Assembly: GCA_009760885.1 (NCBI GenBank)
Contig: CM019721.1
Span: 15,997,696 to 16,061,695 of the forward strand
DNA: 64,000 nucleotides
DNA from: Achatina immaculata
Lineage: Eukaryota > Mollusca > Gastropoda > Stylommatophora > Achatinidae
Direction: 5' to 3'
Under the pieces are notes generated by a model. The model ran no database searches. It saw nothing but the letters and a program-made list of their open reading frames with translations, and was not told the DNA's origin. The position numbers were made by a program, and so were the translations under genes. Positions within the stretch are counted from its first letter, which is position 1. Each line of letters starts with the position of its first letter. Shown one piece after another: positions 2,565 to 60,352 of the stretch.

Positions 2565-3379
2565 CTATGAAGTATTTAGGTGGGATCTCAACTCTTTTGC
2601 TGTTACATGATTGCACATGATGCACATGATTGCTTGGTAAATTACTCCTAACGAGAAACAAAATGAGTCAGAAAAGACTGGCGATATTTTTCCTCGCCAA
2701 AACCAAAAAGTTCTGTATAACTCCGTCGACTGGAAAATTTGTGCTTACACTCTTCATTACATTTTCCGACACAACACTATCAACAGTGAAGCATACAGCA
2801 GTCTGTTTGAGAATCACTTGAAACCTGCAGTCAGAAAAACATGCTTTGCTTAGTTCTGGTGTGTTGTTCAGCATTATAACATGCAGCCTCACACCGTATA
2901 TACAACAGCTCAGCAAACTAGAAATTTGCATTTAGATTATTTTCCACATTCTGTATATTCAGTCTATCCTACACCAAATGATTGTCACGTGTTTGGACAC
3001 CTCAGATAGGCTGTAGGTGGGAAGATGTTCAGTGTGGATGAATAAAGAGGTCATGCATAGCTGGTTACAGGGTCAGAAGATTTTTTTGTCCTCGAGGAAT
3101 CCAAGCATTACTGAAGCGTGACAGACCTGTACTAAACATAGTTGGAACAGACCTGTACTAAACATAGTAGGAACTATGCTGGAAAGTGATAAGTGTTTTC
3201 AATTATATTTGTACATTCTATTCCGATAAAAGAAATTAAAGTCACTTTTTTACTCACCCTCTTGAGTAATATGAATATTAAGAAGAGTACCTGACGCTGC
3301 CAAGGAAAATATGTTTTAAAAAAACACCTACCACCATAGTAATAATACCATTTGCTGAAAAGTATACATTTGACGTTAC
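2565..3379. other. No recognisable gene
   Basis: AT-rich intergenic or intronic DNA. A short direct duplication, GACCTGTACTAAACATAGT, occurs at about 3124 and 3150. Nothing else is supported. Confidence 0.45.
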
Positions 3380-4990
3380 TGTTACAAATATATTATTTAA
3401 AATTAATGAAAGCCCAAGAATTCAAAATCGGTGAAAATGAGTATTTTCGCATCCAAATGACAGTACTAGGCGAGTGAACATATTAAATTCAAAGAAAACA
3501 GTCTAATAAACAATAATAAAGAACACCTGAAAAGCATAAAGTGTACACCATGCTGCCACAAACAAAGTTTTAAAATGAAAATCTTACTTACTTCCATCCC
3601 GTGCCGTTAAACATCACATAGGGCTCGCAAGGTAGATTGCCTAGTTTTCCTGTTTTTGGTGAGCTTTTCAACCTCATCAAGGGATTCTATGACTACTAAT
3701 TTAGCATCTCTTAACAGTGTTCTCTTTAGAGTTACACGTGGTCGACCTCTTTTTCTTCAGCCTGTTGTGTTCCACTTGACAGCTAATTTTGGGATTCTCT
3801 GATTGTTTCTTCTCATCAGATGACCGACATATGTCTGTCTACAATTAAAAGGCTGTGAAACAATTTCCAAAGCCGATTCACAATATTAAGTTTACATATG
3901 AAATCTAGAGCAATATACCAAATTCACAATAACAGAAAAACTCACAAAAATTATAAATTGTACACTATAATGTTACATAGAAATTGTTAAAATGAAAACA
4001 CACTTACAATCCACGTACCAGGTTTTACTCCGGATTCGTTATACTAACTGTGCAAATAAAATGCACGGTAAGGTCATCCTATGCACAATAAAAGAAAAAT
4101 ATGATTTACAGTAACACTTCTTGGTATTCAAGACACTTTTTGCTCTAATGCAGTTCATTTCTCCAATGGAATGAAAATCTTTTAATTAAAAATATGTTAG
4201 TAGTGATGGAAAGTATCCAATCTGATGGTATTCGGTACAAATGGAAACTTATATATGACATCAGGGTTGTTCCGAAAGAAGTGGCTTAGCATGCTTTACC
4301 AGTGTGTGACTGGCTCCATCAGCAGGCACACGCTTCAGTGGATTTTGGAATGGAGAAAGAGCACACACACAGGATTGTCCAGAGTGCAGGGATGCCAGTC
4401 TGATTACAGTTACAGACAGAGGATTTTTTTTGTGTAAAGCTCTTCAATTTTTATAAATAGGATGAAATTTGATGCGGTAAAATCTGACTAATAATGCAAA
4501 GTGAACAAAAATAATTACCAAGAAAGCTGGTCTTATTCACAATTAAAAAACAAATGGGATTAAAAGGAAACATCTGATTGCTTATTGCAAATGGAATACA
4601 AAAAGTACATGTGGCTAACAATGTGTGAACTAAATTAATTTCGAACACAAAACATCAAATTGACAATATTAAATATAAAAATTAAATGTGAAGAAATTGC
4701 TTTATATTATAATCTAAGAAAGCTCTAAACATTCCAACCTAATCTTTCATCTACTATAGTTTTTAAAGCTCTTGATCTTTTTCATTGGATTGAAACTTCA
4801 TGAAGGATATACTCTCATTTAAATTATAATGCTAAATGAAAAAGAAAACTTCTACAGAAGCCCGTCTGATTCAGACTGAAATAAAATGAGATTGAAAGGA
4901 AGCATATCCAATCCACAATAATAAATTATAACATAAATTAAAGCATTAATTTTATACAAAACTTGGAAAGAAAGTTTTGAAATGAACTTG
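3380..4990. repeat. Diverged, loosely periodic interspersed repeat
   Basis: Several blocks about 400 bp apart share drifting words: an ATTCACAATA-type word, ATAAATTxTACAC, a TTTTAAAATGAAAA-type word and TGCGGTAAAATCTGA-like strings (near 3480-3590, 3870-4000, 4460-4500, 4640-4700, 4910-5030). Similar words recur at 7865-8060 and 9700-9800. This suggests an old, tandemly expanded or repeatedly inserted non-coding repeat. It is interrupted by the RTE-2 fragment at 3592-3840. Boundaries are approximate. Confidence 0.4.
3592..3840 (-). mobile_element. RTE-2 3' fragment
   Basis: Matches the RTE-2 3' end in the minus orientation: CCCGTGCCGTTAAACATCACATAGGGCTCGC region, then the C-terminal coding part with the basic RGRP-type stretch near 3740. 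It is more diverged than the copies at 31 and 62 kb and has no open frame. Confidence 0.8.
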
Positions 4991-5004
4991 TTTCTAAAAA
5001 GTCC

Positions 5005-5325
5005 ATGAATAAATTTTTACATCCAATTCACAGTACTAAGAGAACAAATCTGTGGAGAGGAACAGAGAGAACTACAAAAATAAGATTTTTAAGGGCATAC
5101 ATCTTTTCCATCGCAACATATGCTTATCAGACCTTTACACTTAACAAAACAGCTGAGAAACACATAAATGCCTGTGAAAGTAAATGCTGCAGAAGAGTTC
5201 TTCAAATATCATGAACACAAAAAAGAACAGATATATCCATACTACAAGAACTTAATATTGAAGAAGTCTGGCCAGTGAAGAGGATTAAATAGAGGAAAAC
5301 TGAAATATTTTATATACATTAAAAG
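5005..5325 (+). mobile_element. RTE-1 fragment, C-terminal region
   Basis: The frame reads NLWRGTERTTKIRFLRA, then CESKCCRRVLQIS. This corresponds to the region downstream of the RT domain in the fuller RTE-1 copy at 39.5-41.7 kb. Stops at about 5212 and 5289 break the frame. It ends abruptly where a - oriented RTE-1 segment begins; the natural continuation of this piece reappears at 7183. Confidence 0.8.
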
Positions 5326-5339
5326 TTAAGTGAGGCAAC

Positions 5340-5587
5340 AATATGCACCCCTGATGGACCCATTGTTTATGTCAAACCAAGTTGTTGTTTCACAATTTAT
5401 TCTTACTGCTGCCTGTTGGTGATATTACAACAGTGATATTACTTGTATCAAATGTGTTGGAAGCCCATTTTTTGCATTATTTCCCTAAGTTTCCGATGTT
5501 GTACACAATAAAATGCCTTTGAATAGTCTATAAAAGATAAATATAGGTTTACATTAAATTCTGTGCATTTCTCTATTATTAATCATG
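5340..5587 (-). mobile_element. RTE-1 RT-core fragment, first half
   Basis: Aligns by eye to 40400-40650 of the full RTE-1 copy in the same (-) orientation: the region around the GVRQGC motif through the FIDYSKAFD motif, with substitutions and indels. The match stops at about 5587 and resumes at 7004, so the copy is split by about 1.4 kb of foreign DNA. Confidence 0.75.
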
Positions 5588-6405
5588 TTGTAAACTATTT
5601 TATATGTAGTATTTATTGATTCTCATGGTTGTTAATTGTGTATGTATAACTTTATACTTTGCCCCCAATTTTAACCTTTGTTAAGATGGACCATTGTCCC
5701 AGGGGTCTTACAAGTTATCATTATGGGTATGAGTATGTGACAATCACTCCGTGGCTGGGAAAAATCTCTATCTTCCCTTTTTCATTCACAAACAACCATC
5801 CAACGCTTTTTATACTAAGCTGGGAGCATGGCTAATATTTAGCCTACAGTGTGATGTGGTGCCCACATTACACCTTCCTCGCGCCCCCCACCTTCTTACC
5901 TCTTGCCCACCGAACTATCTCTCCACCCAGGTTCCTTTCCTTCATGGGAGCTCTTCTTGCCTGGGTCCACTACCTTGTGATCGTATAGTGTCCTGACAAT
6001 GACCCTATCTAATTACCATCCTGTTATTCATCTCTAACAGACGAATCATAAATTCAACAACATGTATATAAATTCCAAGCAAACTATTTATTACAAAATA
6101 GGCCTATACGTACTCAAAAGCTGTGCCAACACAGATCACGCATAAGCATGTAATGCATTATATTATATGTAGTTCAGTGTATTTCATTTAATTATCATTA
6201 GAGTTGTCTGTCATGGCAACCCACAACAAAATCTTAACATTTCAGATCAGATATGTTTATATCAGAAATACATGACAACTTAAGACTCAAAATAATATCG
6301 TTAACATCCGACATGGTTCCCCTCCCTTCAACCATGTAACATATTACCTGGAAGCCTTAGAGTAAAAGTACATTACATCAATTCTTCCAGGTTCAAAGGC
6401 TCAAT

Positions 6406-6494
<89 letters not shown>

Positions 6495-7003
6495 ATCTTC
6501 AACATTATAAATGTTCATAACTCTCAGGAAAACAGGTTCTTATAACTATTGCCATTTCTATCTACACATATTTCTTGTATTTCAACTAACCTATTACACT
6601 TATGACTGCGGACACCAAATACTACGCGACTTTACATGAAATTTACAATAACTGATAATTATAACTCAGGAATGTGACGGCATCGGGCGGAGCTCTGAGA
6701 TCATAGATGACAAAACAAACATACTCACGACCTCTTAATAACTGAAATACACATTTTCCAGTATACAGCAAGGACAATAAGCTTCTTCAGACACAATATG
6801 CCGCCTGAGCCATGTTTTGTCTGAACGAAAACCGCTCTCTAATGCCGAAAATGTGGCGCGTCTCCTCGTCTAACTCTCTGATCACGTGATATAACATCAT
6901 TAACATACCCAATGATAAAATTAGAATTTGTAAGCGGGTCATGTGTATGCCTGTCGTGACCGACTGTGATCACGACACCAATGCATCCGGCCGTTCACAT
7001 TAT
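5588..7003. other. 1.4-kb insertion splitting an RTE-1 copy
   Basis: No recognisable coding region. It contains a CA/TA microsatellite (6407-6494). The flanking RTE-1 halves are collinear with one intact copy, so this segment arrived after that RTE-1 copy. I could not find clear terminal repeats to name the element. Confidence 0.5.
6407..6494. repeat. CA/TA microsatellite
   Basis: About 35 CA dinucleotides followed by about eight TA dinucleotides. Low-complexity, likely length-polymorphic. Confidence 0.95.
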
Positions 7004-7985: not shown

Positions 7986-8272
7986 AATTTATTTTTAAAA
8001 TGTACTTCATGTCCCAGTTGGCATGAAACTTCATGCCGTAAAATCTGTTTCACAGACAAATTAAATACTGAATAAACCCAATTTTATTCACTGTAATACG
8101 CATAAAAATACATTTATCTTCTTCTTCAGCTTTCCCAGCTATTAAGGGTCATTGCTGCAGATAAAGTTCTCCTCTATTCTTCTCTATTCCTAATCTTCTC
8201 TCTCCAGTTGGTGAAACTAATTTCCTTTATATCATTTTCGTCATTCTATCTCTGTCTTGATCTATCCCTTGG
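7986..8272 (-). repeat. Duplicated block (copy 1) with RTE-4 3' end
   Basis: About 287 bp nearly identical to 9691-9986 in the same orientation; the second copy has an extra ACTAAGTGAAC-type insertion near 9762. The right half (about 8117-8272) is, on -, the 3' end of an RTE-4-like element with its GAAGAAGAAG tail. The left half is a piece of the old AT-rich repeat seen at 3.4-5 kb. Because the flank beyond the tail is shared, the whole block was duplicated, not just the retroelement. Confidence 0.8.
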
Positions 8273-9690: not shown

Positions 9691-9986
9691 AATTTATTTT
9701 TAAAATGTACTTCATGTCCCAGTTGGCATGAAACTTCATGCCGTAAAATCTGTTTCACAGAACTAAGTGAACAAATTAAATACTAAATAAACCCAATTTT
9801 ATTCACTGTAATACACATAAAAATACATTTATCTTCTTCTTCAGCTTTCCCAGCTATTAAGGGTCATTGCTGCAGATAAAGTTCTCCTCTATTCTTCTCT
9901 ATTCCTAATCTTCTCTCTCCAGTTGGTGAAACTAATTTCCTTTATATCATTTTCGTCATTCTATCTCTGTCTTGATCTACCCCTTG
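9691..9986 (-). repeat. Duplicated block (copy 2) with RTE-4 3' end
   Basis: Second copy of the 7986-8272 block. The two direct copies flank about 1.4 kb holding RTE-3, HTH, RTE-2 and mariner fragments. Confidence 0.8.
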
Positions 9987-18163: not shown

Positions 18164-18372
18164 TTTATCAATTTTTTTCTTTTATTAAACAAAAATAACC
18201 GGTTAGCTTATTATTTATTTTCGACTACACTCACAAAACTAGTCTGCTTCCTATATTATGACTTATACAGTATCCAATATTATAAAACTAGCAAAGTTCA
18301 TTATGGTGCCTTGGAGTGTATTGTTCATCCCGATTCCATCGTATTGAGGAATAAAAATGTGACTGATTTATC

Positions 18373-18648
18373 TCTGAGCGAACAATCATCAACCAGCAAC
18401 TAACGATCTGAATGGCCTCTAAGGACGAGTCGATTTTGGTATGCTATGAGAGAACAATCGATCAGCAAACGAAAGATATGTATGACTTGTAAGGACGAGT
18501 CGTTTTTGGTATGCTCTGAGCGAACAATCAATCATCAAAACGAGCTATCTGTATGACCTCTAAGGACGAGCCGTTTTTGGTATGTTCTGATCGAACAACC
18601 GATCAGCAAACGAATGATCTTTATGACCAATCGATTCTGGTTTGCACT
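18373..18648. repeat. Tandem array, ~70-bp unit, about four copies
   Basis: Each unit contains GAACAATC, an ATCAGCAAACGA-type word, a TATGACCTCT-type word, AAGGACGAGTCG and TTTTTGGTATGCTCTGAG. The word AAGGACGAG recurs at 18421, 18491 and 18562; the last unit is partial. It lies just upstream of the capsid-like relic and the R/N-rich frame, in the largest non-coding gap of the element-like block. Confidence 0.9.
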
Positions 18649-42848: not shown

Positions 42849-44148
42849 CAAGGTCTGACAATTAAGTAATGAGACTGATTTTATCATGACCAAGACAGAA
42901 ATGCCACCTATGAAGCAAAGCATGAAATTAAAAGAGGCAACCTTCATCTATGTTCTGGCAACTTTTCATCGCCACCCGATACGCAGACGACAAACAAGTC
43001 GCCATTTTGTTGACCTAGTTAGAGGTGCATTGTCACGTAATCAGCATGGAGCAAAAAGCTAACATTAAATTCTGTTTAAAACTCGGGAAAAGTGCCATTG
43101 AGACAGTTGATATTGATGCGACAAGTGTAAGGGAATAATTGTTTTTCTCGTGCACAGATATTCAGGTTGTATTCACGATCAAAAAGTGGTGTGGAAACGA
43201 TTACAAATGCAACTAAACATGTACCCCCAATTTCTGTTCGTAATGAGGAACTAATTCCAAAAGTCAGAGAACGGATACAAGAAGATCGTTGTTTGACTGT
43301 GATGACAATGGCAAATGAATTTGGTGTTAACCGAGAAACCATTCGTAAAGTTTTAGTGGAAGATTTTGGGCAAGAAAAAAGTTGCTTGCCGGTTTGTACC
43401 ATATGTATTATCTGATGACTAAAATCATCAGCGTATTGAATACGCAAAAGACATCATCAAAACGTGTCGCAGAAATAAACATTTCTTAAATTTGATTATT
43501 GCAGAAGATGAAACATGGAGTTTCTGCTATGTTCCCACAACTAACCACCAAAGTGCTCAGTGGAAGTCATTATCATCACCGATAGGCAAAACATTCATCT
43601 TCAAAAGTCGAAAGTGAAGACAATGTTGGTGTGCTTCTATGACAGCAAAGGAGTTATTCACAAAGAATTTATTCCAGAGGGACAGACTGTCACTGCCAAA
43701 GTTTATTTAAGTATTTTGAAATGCCTAATGAAAAGAATTCTCCGACCCGAGTATTCAACATCTGGCAGTTTCTTCAAGATGATGCACCCGTTTACCGGGT
43801 GGTAGTTGTACGAGAATTTTTAGCCCAAAAACAAGTGTGTTTTCTCAACCATCCACCATATTCTCCAGATTTGTCTCCCTGCTATTATTTTCTATTCCCA
43901 AAATTAAAGTTACCGTTGCAAGGACGCTACTTTGACGATACTGATGACATCCAAAGGGCCGTAACATCGAGTTTAAGGGCCATACCAACAGAAGAACTGA
44001 AGAGGTCGTTCCAGTGTTTGTTAGATCGTGCCACTCGCTGTATCAGTGCACAAAGGGCTTACTTTGAACAAAATACAGGTTATATCTTCAAGTGTTGCTT
44101 ATTTTATTTTTTCTGGAATTAGTCTCACTAGTTTCTTGTCGGAGGTTG
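42849..44148 (+). mobile_element. Mariner-type transposon with terminal inverted repeats, inactive
   Basis: Left end CAAGGTCTGACAATTAAGTA and the reverse complement of the right end (CAACCTCCGACAAGAAACTA) match imperfectly, and both are bordered by TA, the mariner target. The two ends continue to match through TGAGACTxATT. Length is about 1300 bp, normal for a full mariner. It carries a broken GVQW3/SETMAR-like transposase. The element sits in the 12.6-kb SLCO intron in the sense direction. Confidence 0.9.
43046..44122 (+). pseudogene. Mariner transposase (GVQW3-like), inactivated
   Basis: DD34D-type transposase in several frames. Order seen: MEQKANIKFCLKLGKSAIET at the start, the second HTH FGVNRETIRKVLVEDFG (43.3 kb), first catalytic Asp in IIAEDETWSFCYVP (43.5 kb), SKVKTMLVCFYDSKGVIHKE, second catalytic region FLQDDAPVYR (43.79 kb) and HPPYSPDLSPCYYFLFPKLK (43.86 kb). 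In the last motif the family has Asp where this copy has Tyr (C-Y-Y), so the third catalytic residue is lost. Stops or frameshifts occur near 43136, 43200, 43415, 43560 and 43740. Confidence 0.9.
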
Positions 44149-44934: not shown

Positions 44935-45198
44935 TTCACTGGACAACAATTGGAGATCTTTGAGAACAAGATTCTAAGAAGAATCTTTGGGCCCACACAA
45001 GATACCAACACTGGAGAATGGAGAGCTAGAAAGAACACTGAACGGAACAGCTTATTTAACTCCCAACGAATTTTAAATGTCTTGACTAAACTGGCTGGGA
45101 CATGTTGAAAGAATGAGGAGAACAGACAAACGAAAATGATGTATATATAAGGGATGAGGGAAACAGTACCAATAGGTAGACCAAAACAGAGGTGGAAA
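44935..45198 (+). mobile_element. RTE-4 C-terminal fragment, first part
   Basis: In shifting + frames: LEIFENKILRRIFGPTQDTN-like, then RMRETVPIGRPKQRWKML. This is the post-RT region of an RTE-type element. It is cut at 45198 by a retroposon insertion and resumes at 45706. Confidence 0.7.
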
Positions 45199-45694
45199 AT
45201 GCTGAAGTCGGAGACACTGGACCAGTGCAGTCTAGATAGGCAACCACCTCTCACCCGGCGGGGATGTTTGCGTATCCTAATCACGCTGAGGTTTTCCGGT
45301 GAGAAAGTCCAACCCTGGACTGGATGGGCAACCACCTCTCACCCGGCTGTGATACACGGGTATCTCAAAACACGTCGAGGTTTTCCGGTGAGAAGGTCCA
45401 ACTCTGGCCTAGGTGGGCTACCACCTCTCACCCAGTGGGGATGCACTGATATCCTAAACACGTCGAGGTTTTCCGGTGAGAACGTCCAACTCTAGACTAA
45501 ACTGGTGCAACGAAAACCACGGTGTCACGCAATCAGCTTCAGAGACCCACCAAGAATACAGGCTAAAGCCCTGCGATACACTGAACTCCTTGTGGTCCTC
45601 TCGGAGACCACGGGACCTAACGAGGAACACAGGCATAAATTCAGTAGGATCACAGTGCGGTCTTGGTGGTAGAAGCGAACAAAGAAGAAGAAGA
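45199..45694 (+). mobile_element. Novel retroposon with internal ~88-bp tandem repeats and AAG tail
   Basis: Flanked by the perfect 11-bp duplication AGAGGTGGAAA (45188-45198 and 45695-45705). The insert is 496 bp. Its first half holds three copies of an 88-89 bp unit (CAACCACCTCTCACCCGG ... GGTTTTCCGGTGAGAA) starting at about 45241, 45329 and 45418. A unique segment follows (CACGGTGTCACGCAATCAGC; GTGGTCCTCTCGGAGACCAC, which can form a hairpin), then AAAGAAGAAGAAG at the right end. No coding region or pol III boxes are recognised. Tandem-repeat body plus simple 3' tail plus target-site duplication indicates a non-autonomous element mobilised by LINE machinery. Confidence 0.85.
45231..45497. 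repeat. Tandem repeat, 88-89 bp unit, three copies
   Basis: Each unit contains CTCACCCGG near its start and CCGGTGAG near its end; these are reverse complements (CTCACC/GGTGAG plus CCGG), so each unit can fold into a long-looped hairpin. Copies differ by about 10-15 percent. Confidence 0.9.
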
Positions 45695-45705
45695 AGAGGT
45701 GGAAA

Positions 45706-45865
45706 GATAATATAGAAGAAGATATAAAAGAAATTGGTGTGACCAAGTGAAGAGAGAAGGTTAGGAATATAGAGGAATGGAGGCGAAATTTACCTGCAGC
45801 AGTGAGCCTTAATGGCTCGGAAAACTGAAGAAGATGAAGAAGAAGAAGAAGAAGAGAAGAAGAAG
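45706..45865 (+). mobile_element. RTE-4 C-terminal fragment, second part and GAA tail
   Basis: Continues the 45198 frame: RWKDNIEEDIKEIGVTK, then EEWRRNLPAAVSLNGSEN before a stop and a (GAA)n tail. Matches the duplicated 3' ends at 8117-8272 and 9835-9986 on -. Confidence 0.75.
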
Positions 45866-46843
45866 CTCACTTGTCGTAGGTTGGGTTCGAAGACATCATT
45901 GATAGATAATATCTGTGAAACGCTATATTGAGTCAACAGTGAATGAGATAAGCCATATTGGGTGGGGGAAGGGGGCGGCGTACACAACAGCTACAACAAC
46001 AATATTAACGATGATGATAGCTTTTTTTATAAGCATCTTCGTTATTTTGCCTATGAAGGAAATCAACCATCACCAAGCTAGTTAATCAAACATTTGAGAA
46101 TAGTGATCCTCTAAGAGCTTAGGAACACAACTAGAAATTAGGTTGCTTCAAATGACATAGTTACAAGCAGAACGTCGTGTTAAAGACATGTCCTCCCAGA
46201 GAAATCTTGCAAGCTGGTGCAGAATTCTTCCTTCCCCCCTCCCTCCCACCCCTTATTCTGCTGCTTAGCCATTCTATTTTCATCCACTACGCCCCTCCTC
46301 CTCTGCAAAACAGGGAAAGCCGTCCGAGCATGGAAACGATCCCCGGCTCTTTCTATCGATCCTCTTTCTTACTGGGTCAGGTTATGCCTGAGTAAGATTA
46401 CGAACCCATTCAACATTAATTTTAATGCTTTCAAAGAATGATGACAAGACTATAAATATATACTTACATCTACACTTCCGAAAGTTATGCATCCAATGTT
46501 GTGAGAAGTCGCATACCTCAGGTTATCCGAGTTGCGAAAATAAGTGATGTTATACAAAACGAAAGAATACACAAAGAGCTAAGACTATATAATCTTCATA
46601 GTATTACATGGAAAGTCTTCGCAAGATTCAGTCCAAACCAGCAATAGAAACTGACAAAGCGTTTGAAGATCAACCAGTAACATGATCTTCAGAATAAATG
46701 CAAAACGAAGCTATGCTTCAGAAACTGACAAAGCGTTTCAAGATCAATCAGTAACATGAGCTTTAGAATAAAGCTATGCTTCAGTTTTGTTGCATTTGTC
46801 ACGGCGTTTGATACTAAGAGCAGATACGGACAGTATAAAGCAT
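45866..46843. other. Intron sequence
   Basis: No gene seen. A short local duplication occurs near 46645-46755: GAAACTGACAAAGCGTTT and GATCAACCAGTAACATGA words occur twice. Confidence 0.5.
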
Positions 46844-58762: not shown

Positions 58763-58937
58763 CTTCTACCTGAACTTTTTACTTTATTGTCTAGTTCTTT
58801 GTATGTTGCTTTTGCCAAATCTTTTCTAGCTGAACTTTTACTTTACTGTCTAGTTCTTTGTATGTTGCTTTTGCCAAATCTTTTCTAGCTGAACTTTTAC
58901 TTTACTGTCTAGTTCTTTGTATGTTGGTTTTGCCAAA
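58763..58937. repeat. Tandem repeat, ~59-bp unit, three copies
   Basis: The unit TCTAGCTGAACTTTTACTTT ... CTTTGTATGTTGCTTTTGCC recurs at about 58771, 58831 and 58890. It directly abuts the 5' end of the RTE-2 copy. Confidence 0.95.
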
Positions 58938-60057
58938 ACAACTATTTGCTATTTAGATTTTTTAAAATAAAAATTAAGGTTACTTTTTGACTCGCTCTTT
59001 ACATACCGCTCTTCGCATGTCACAGACCGTTCAGGTCAAGCTGGAATACGGCAAAAGATGAGTTCTTCAAATCTTACTTGAGGTCAACAGTTCTGCAAGA
59101 ACGACATAGCAACTTGGTAATATTATCAAATGAACGTGAAGAAGCCAGAAATATTCGTTTAGATACAAATTTAGAAGAATTTACTGAGGGAAAAAGCTAA
59201 GAAAAGTTTCTTTGAAGTGAACTTTTACAAGAAAGAAAAGTTATAAATTACTTTTTAAAGTAAATATTTTAAATGTGAATACTAGACAGGCTAATTGTTA
59301 CAAATGTAATGTCATGTGCTTCTGGGTATGTAAATAAGTTATTAACATGAAATATTAATTTAATATATCTGACTGAGTTCCTGACCTATCTATATGATAG
59401 CGATATCCTGGGCAATCAAAGAAAGTTCAGAGTTGAAGGTGATCTTATATATAAAAGTTGGTTGCCGACGTGCGAATCCTCATGTCCGACTTGTATAGTG
59501 AGCGACACCATCTTATGTTGACGTGCTAGATCATCCTCCACGGGTACTGACATAGCTGGAGTGAATTAATACTTTTAAATAATTAACATTAATTATGTAA
59601 TGATCTTGATTTATTACAAAGAAATGTATTAACATGAAAATAGGAGAGGACTCTGCTACTGTGTCTCGCGTTTGTCCCCGCACCTGCTCAAGCCGCCCCT
59701 GCCCTCGTTGTGTCAGCATCACCTATATTATGGGGGGAAATGTCTCCAAAACTGTCTTAACACTTTATAAGAGATTCTTCTCAATCTCTCAACGTCATAC
59801 ATGCTACTGGGTAGAAAAGAAATTAAAATTATATTAGGAAGACTGGTCTCAAACTGCATTATGTACCACCTTTATGGCATTTTCTAGAATGCTTCTAAAT
59901 CAGTGTATATAATTTCAACAACTCCAACCACAGAAGTATGCCTGACTACAAATGACAACCATCAAACAATGTCACTCTGATGACAGAAACCGTCTAGACT
60001 CCAAGCCCTCCTCATATGGAACTTAAATCAAGCTGACTGAACTTTAACTTTAATGCG
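58938..60057. other. No recognisable gene
   Basis: No domain or repeat recognised; a short cysteine-rich frame at 59634-59837 is probably chance. Confidence 0.4.
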
Positions 60058-60352
60058 TAAATATATAGGTCGATATATAATAAATATATAGTAAATATAT
60101 GTAAATATAGTAAATATAGATGTAAATATATAGTAAATATATAAATATATAGTAAATATATGTAAATATACAGTAAATATAGATGTAAATATATAGTAAA
60201 TATATGTAAATATAGATGTAAATATATGGTAAATATATAGGTCGATATATGCGTAAATATATAGTAAATATAGATGTAAATATATAGTAAATATATGTAA
60301 ATATATAGTAAATATAGATGTAAATATATAGTAAATATATAGGTCGATAACC
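60058..60352. repeat. AT-rich minisatellite
   Basis: Variable units built from TAAATATATAG, TAAATATAGATG and GGTCGATATAT words across about 295 bp. Confidence 0.95.

Follow-up and report, generated by a model that had tools for sequence, protein, structure and literature searches.

The fronts of SVA elements were gained from other transcripts, and the elements end in a poly(A) tail. U6-L1 chimeric retrocopies arise when reverse transcription jumps from one template, a LINE-type RNA, to another, an abundant nuclear RNA, and reaches the 5′ end of the latter. SVA and LAVA elements of hominoid primates are described as non-autonomous VNTR composites that are moved in trans by a LINE (PMC4432496, PMC7353768). 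R2 SIDEs are non-autonomous LINE derivatives, and 5′ additions of other RNAs are explained by template jumps (PMC3414825); SINE28, derived from the 3′ end of 28S rRNA, and SINEs headed by 5S, 7SL or snRNA are known likewise (PMC8010984). The cockroach and bivalve SINEs described in the consulted parts of PMC9191728 and PMC10294476 show nothing like the family reported here.

The window, that is, the whole stretch of 64,000 nucleotides of Achatina immaculata DNA that was analysed, carries a perfect 11-bp direct repeat, AGAGGTGGAAA, at 45188–45198 and again, as an exact 11-mer, at 45695–45705 (forward strand, as are all features of the insert). These target-site duplications bound 496 bp (45199–45694) that consist of three repeats of 88–89 bp, a unique 3′ part and an AAG tail; a sequence-only reading of the window had described all of this, and it was confirmed. 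By comparison with other copies, the insert opens with the end of a single-copy bridge (45199–45231), which in longer copies lies between a 107-bp and an 88-bp array. Repeat analysis placed units of 88, 89 and 88 bp at 45232–45319, 45320–45408 and 45409–45496 (tandem-repeat score 359 over 45232–45499; mean column identity 90%); the third unit is 93–97% like the last unit of 23 copies that were laid out. The unique 3′ domain (45497–45681) is followed by an AAG/GAA microsatellite tail (45682–45694), similar to the tails of 20 fetched copies; the AAG run itself extends over 45682–45696, so that its final two bases overlap the right duplication. A closed stem is predicted within the 3′ domain (45547–45555 with 45661–45669, 9/9 paired; z −2.55). 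Folding of the long 3′ end gave z-scores of −2.86, −2.55, −1.92 and −1.12, and the 88-bp units alone gave 0.23 to −0.56; as only single-sequence z-scores stand behind the fold, a conserved structure was set aside.

The insert lies in an RTE-type relic, recognised by eye from its RTE C-terminus and by alignment of the empty site; the relic occupies 44940–45187 on the 5′ side of the insertion and 45706–45866, with a GAA tail of its own, on the 3′ side. When the flanks were joined, they aligned to two paralogous relics in the window that are free of the insert (8100–8270 and 9830–9985, both on the reverse strand) with scores of 151 and 150 and a 6-bp gap near the junction; the maximum score over 300 shuffles of the first paralogue was 33. 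Because both paralogues run through the site without the insert, the empty site is demonstrated by paralogy. Elsewhere in the window, a relic at 43100–44125 resembles a mariner-type transposase by eye, its 133-aa frame being without a Pfam match, and further tandem arrays lie at 18372–18628 (70-bp×3.6), 58764–58937 (59-bp×2.9) and 60057–60340 (23/44-bp×13/6.5).

The insert had been described as free of open frames, which is nearly so: a single 113-aa frame extends across the repeats, and a search with its part from 45199 onwards returned eight candidates, none at E≤0.01. No polymerase frame was found in the insert. The tRNA search of the whole 64-kb window was empty, and nothing near the insert reached the Rfam gathering score (best E 0.25). 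A pseudogene of a coding gene, named beforehand as a possible refutation, was rejected for the absence of relatives of the repeat frame, the one frame searched; yet a non-coding gene, that of pre-rRNA, does form part of some copies, as set out below.

The window's own 1.65-Gb assembly (145 contigs) was searched with the insert. This gave 4,196 first-look candidates, and all of the 40 that were scored, the window's own among them, were 92–100% identical, nearly all across the whole insert. Exact matches to a 33-mer from the 3′ end number 723 and those to a 28-mer from another, younger 3′ end 5,307, with none for either in the reversed control. The insert thus belongs to a real high-copy family with thousands of 3′ ends, and a single copy genome-wide, the other refutation foreseen, is excluded by these counts. 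Matches of 18-mers in viral and bacterial contigs were put down to chance. The genome search proposed by the sequence-only reading as the test of a family also brought out the expected GAA/AAG tails and site duplications; these measure 11–14 bp and were read in 28 of 44 loci (compiled by hand; those of L058 and L088 lie in tandem-repeat targets). Omitted from the 28 were L048, L051, L074, L080 and L082, where matches were imperfect, short or in tandem repeats; in 11 of the 44 loci, including L075, which lacks a recognised 3′ end, a duplication was looked for and none was found. The 496-bp unit, however, is not the whole element as had been assumed: all 20 copies that were fetched extend further upstream than 45199, so a stand-alone element of this length is ruled out and the window insert is 5′-truncated, comprising the 3′ ∼496 of ∼1,290–1,500 nt. 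It is an ordinary truncated member of the family without an rRNA head, and GAA tails and 5′ truncations were seen across the fetched copies.

Full-length copies measure 1.06–1.5 kb and begin at about −1,060, −1,290 or −1,484 from the 3′ end. A full copy opens with the native front and monomers 1 and 2, continues through the 107-bp array, the bridge and the 88-bp array, and closes with the 3′ domain and the GAA tail. The two 5′ monomers are related, are ∼230 bp long and begin with CCGCTG and ACACTG, and the starts of copies coincide with those of monomers. When 15 loci with longer flanks were compared with L044, most shared homology to about −1,290, and L051, L055 and L058 shared it less far. 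Directly after a perfect duplication, L047, L049, L053 and L056 start at CCGCTG or one base in, and L055 and L058 start ∼230 bp further in at ACACTG; in a second sample L063, L064 and L070 also start at CCGCTG after a duplication, which brings the CCGCTG starts, within a base or two, to seven copies. It thus seems that either monomer can mark the 5′ end of an RNA. L045, L046, L052 and L057 have in common a third start, GGTTCTAAGGACTG, which lies between about −1,460 and −1,517. Because two old diverged copies carry the C-type front too, this front is probably native to the element, and its capture from a foreign source was set aside on the same observation.

Variable repeat number was a further expectation of the sequence-only reading. 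Three units make up the 88-bp array in 31 of 37 bodies, two in five and one in a single body; the 107-bp array has three in 34 of 37, two in two and one in one, and with five units in L034, which is outside this set, ranges from one to five. Many of the 37 bodies were found with a three-unit query, so that the counts lean towards three and variation may be under-sampled. No protein of the family's own was seen in the copies that were read. A ribozyme at the 5′ end was dropped for want of any Rfam match there, no tRNA was found in three scanned C-type stretches, and neither 5S nor 7SL RNA reached the Rfam gathering score in six loci with full copies. The SVA-like design that had been proposed is supported in these respects: no protein of its own was seen, copies are modular, arrays are in tandem and fronts differ.

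Some of these fronts are of a pre-rRNA type, composed of an upstream spacer-like part and the first ∼20–541 nt of 18S rRNA, the latter presumably gastropod-like. What precedes CCGCTG in L044 is 18S rRNA (Rfam SSU_rRNA_eukarya, 95 bits; 432 bits in L085), and a stretch of ∼484 nt, which is taken as the 5′ external transcribed spacer (5′ ETS), runs unbroken into its 18S start. Among 16 long loci, heads were found at the main copy in L044, L048 and L050 and at a second copy in L046. Twelve loci chosen by hand among 100 of the 723 places of the 3′ 33-mer made up the second sample, which contained heads in L060 and L066, the C-type front in three loci, the CCGCTG start in three and truncated copies in four.

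The heads are numerous and dispersed. With a 707-nt head as query, at least 40 full-length matches (at least nt 1–705) were obtained on most large contigs, 24 of the 40 with identical score, and one partial match besides. An exact 32-mer of the head start occurs 344 times in the genome (none reversed), and an element was attached in every one of these head starts that was read. Head starts are therefore ∼6% as frequent as young tails (344 vs 5,307 exact). Contig C1 carries at least 100 young tails in its first 29.2 Mb; three of 100 have a head within 3 kb upstream on the same strand, and all three heads listed there sit upstream of a young tail on that strand. When a 260-nt query across the join of 18S nt 222 to the element was used, 5,041 first-look candidates came up; 40 were scored, headed by the locus from which the query came, and every one of them spans the join (1–259 or 1–260). 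Ten such loci were read: the head starts at GTCAGCC or within 3 nt of it in L078, L079, L082 and L083, and it matches from head nt 10 and 17 in L075 and L076, from nt 63 in L074, L077 and L080, and from nt 355 in L081. Among heads with a visible start, none begins at the mature 18S 5′ end.

The heads and the bodies to which they are attached were compared in five young loci (L084–L088). All five heads start at GTCAGCC directly after perfect duplications, and no difference was found in 706 nt of head in any of the ten pairs; the bodies differ by 1.9–4.1% (25–53 differences in ∼1,290 nt, 9–13 of them CpG-type). Identical heads on differing bodies imply that the two have different histories. The element joins 18S rRNA at nt 222 in L084 and L086, nt 331 in L087, nt 436 in L088 and nt 541 in L085; other joins lie at about nt 20 (L060), nt 152 (L048 and L050) and nt 178 (L066). 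At joins 222 and 331 both partners have the letters CC, as judged from the native 18S of L085, and the same presumably holds for join 436; the nt-541 join shows no shared letters and an extra G. Differing extra letters are carried by the nt-222 join (aaaac+CC, +TC, ccTCC, ccTCCC), and in a tree of the 37 bodies (without support values) those with this join fall into several lineages; for these two reasons it was probably formed several times. The likeness of nt-222 copies near the join against elsewhere gave a fraction of 0.049–0.068 in three windows of the first 400 nt and of 0.57–0.73 beyond, which is suggestive at most of copies that are more alike near the join. The nt-152 join is common to L048 and L050, together with seven variants that are absent from five compared heads; the two have 22 and 39 variants of their own, respectively, and their bodies are sisters in the tree; at least one chimera seems, from this pair, to have been copied again.

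The reading that we prefer, as somewhat probable, is that the heads arise by template jumping of a reverse transcriptase onto primary pre-rRNA in a gene-less non-LTR retroposon family. The element RNA would consist of the ∼230-nt 5′ monomers, the 107-nt array, the bridge, the 88-nt array, the 3′ domain and the GAA tail, without a gene. A LINE reverse transcriptase would copy it into new sites by target-primed reverse transcription; of this, the tails, the 11–14-bp duplications, the 5′ truncations and the empty site were observed directly. At the 5′ end of the element RNA (CCGCTG), or sometimes earlier, the enzyme would jump to unprocessed pre-rRNA and continue the copy as far as the first nucleotide of that RNA, or close to it, which would yield an insert with an ETS–18S head. 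The chimeras, their starts, joins and duplications were read directly; the head start would correspond to nucleotide +1 of the pre-rRNA, and jumping would account for the join. The five identical heads on diverged bodies speak for such jumps, as do the varied extra letters and several body lineages at the nt-222 join, the CC shared at joins 222 and 331, and two chimeras, described below, in which the middle of the element adjoins the 18S 3′ end with ITS1-like sequence. With only 344 head starts to 5,307 young tails, headed copies are a side product and not the main source of the family. Against jumping, the nt-222 join recurs far above the expectation for chance jumps, which calls for a pre-rRNA fragment that ends there or for another hot spot; no head with a visible start begins with mature 18S, which would be expected to be the more plentiful RNA; the apparent recopying of the nt-152 pair calls for a promoter, which is not expected in a copy made by jumping; and the nt-541 join has its extra G and no shared letters.

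Several of these observations would be met by master copies that reside in rDNA, within 18S or ITS1, and are transcribed by polymerase I from +1; the read-through RNA would be retroposed, and the heads would be 5′ transductions. A single starting nucleotide in five young heads and the absence of starts at mature 18S agree with this, join hot spots are easily understood as insertion sites, and the nt-152 pair looks amplified. Heads that are identical while bodies differ are likewise expected if rDNA homogenisation holds the head constant. Such residence would, however, require elements to have inserted independently, several times, at precisely nt 222; no element was found within 18S at that position (one exact form was searched, in an assembly from which the rDNA array seems to be missing); and the rarity of head starts, at ∼6% of young tails, also counts against it. 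We regard rDNA-resident masters as possible, with probability on the lower side. Still a little more tentative, and rather unlikely, is the broader proposition that the family has colonised rDNA and that polymerase I read-through RNAs seed hundreds of dispersed retroposons without a fixed target site.

What the assembly retains of rDNA bears on this. Across the entire assembly, a 27-mer of the 18S 3′ end has just three exact matches, two of which are chimeras in which the 18S 3′ end is followed by ITS1-like sequence and then by the middle of an element; the rDNA array therefore seems practically absent, and the test for residence is weak. In one chimera (L092, C8:43715000–43715720) the ITS1-like sequence meets the 88-bp array, and in the other (L093, C10:2599050–2599420) it meets the 107-bp array; a truncated body next to ITS1-like sequence is what residents of rDNA that are themselves truncated would naturally give. 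The chimera on C8 is known from its two ends, as L090, 2.3 kb upstream of L092, holds the 18S start and the whole head to GTCAGCC; no rRNA was found at L091, where a full head of L093 would start. Near the third 18S 3′ end, which also has ITS1-like sequence, an older ETS-like stretch (∼81%) lies on the minus strand (L089, C6:37124700–37125900, and L094) and may be an old chimera of similar kind. On contig C47, a U2 snRNA match (L073 180–363, 89.7 bits) lies near an rRNA-headed copy, and this copy recurs 23.5 kb away with a like match pattern in a context that is LINE-like by eye. C47 was rejected as an rDNA array owing to this context, the U2 gene beside one copy and post-tail letters that are not 18S. 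The dispersed “18S” matches read here are retroposon heads.

As the LINE that drives the family, the sequence-only reading had pointed to RTE-4, the family of the host relic, and the GAA tails of both element and RTE-4 agree with this; no likeness was found beyond the tail (alignment score without tails 13, shuffle mean 15.7), and another LINE has more in common with the element, so that RTE-4 as the driver now appears improbable. This other LINE, in L050 (minus strand, about 3002–6516), has Pfam RVT_1 and RNase_H matches, broken frames and a GAA tail; it ends in GACAATGCGAAC(GAA)n and the element in GTAGAAGCGAAC(GAA)n, with GCGAAC(GAA)n as the common part. Over their full extent, the two 3′ ends show no significant similarity (score 11; shuffle mean 12.4, 95th percentile 21), and this RNase-H LINE is put forward as a better, if unproven, candidate partner than RTE-4 from its shared terminus. 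Two LINE-like proteins (P0069 and P0074) are filed under Staphylococcus aureus and probably represent animal contamination of bacterial assemblies. A further reading takes the window insert for a worn 3′ UTR, with tandem repeats in it, from a LINE of the ordinary kind, as its 5′ truncation and the capacity of LINE 3′ UTRs to hold repeats might suggest; it is very improbable, given that longer copies have precise 5′ ends with duplications at 1.06–1.5 kb, that the sequence shared with L044 at the main copy (15 loci, 8.5 kb upstream) stops at about −1,062 to −1,306, or at about −2,000 where pre-rRNA is present, and that no common reverse transcriptase frame was seen in the upstream stretches, part of which were scanned for frames.

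A rare side reaction of LINE reverse transcriptases is turned by this gene-less family into something that can be counted. Within one genome, the places where heads start and where they join, and the letters added there, form a readable, natural record of foreign-RNA joining. The heads may mark the pre-rRNA 5′ end of the host species, and they provide fresh copies of the 5′ ETS although the rDNA array seems unassembled; if residence in rDNA were true, polymerase I would feed a dispersed retroposon. Matches to “18S rDNA” that are scattered across a genome should be viewed with caution, as they can be retroposon heads.

By its duplications, 3′ tail, 5′ truncations and lack of a polymerase of its own, the family is placed among non-autonomous non-LTR retroposons. 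A head derived from RNA polymerase III transcripts, as in SINEs, was not found in the tRNA, 5S and 7SL searches. The head is composed of ETS-like sequence and 18S and not of 28S as in SINE28, and there is no fixed rDNA insertion site of the R1/R2/R7/R8 kind, the copies being dispersed with differing flanks and duplications. The family resembles SINE28 and the small-RNA-headed SINEs in being gene-less with a front derived from rRNA or small RNA; unlike SINE28, it carries the 5′ end of pre-rRNA, in a piece that differs in length and joins at many points, and a head seems to be absent from most copies. With R2 SIDEs and R2 jumps it shares non-autonomy and the addition of foreign RNA at the 5′ end; in contrast to R2 SIDEs, with their fixed R2 or R1 site and R2 ribozyme, insertions are dispersed, the added RNA is ETS–18S and the 5′ end has no Rfam match. 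Unlike in U6-L1 chimeras, the acceptor is primary pre-rRNA that is entered internally, and 344 exact head starts are found in one genome. Like SVA and LAVA, the family is non-autonomous, gene-less and modular, with a tandem array between other modules and with fronts that come from other transcripts; it differs in its GAA tail, in its 107- and 88-bp arrays of mostly three units and in its pre-rRNA heads. In the literature searched, from which subscription journals are largely absent, no description was found of pre-rRNA 5′-end fronts on a dispersed, array-bearing, gene-less family. Template jumps, rRNA or small-RNA fronts and SVA-like design are already known; relative to that literature, what seems to be new is the combination of pre-rRNA 5′-end fronts with an array-bearing family.
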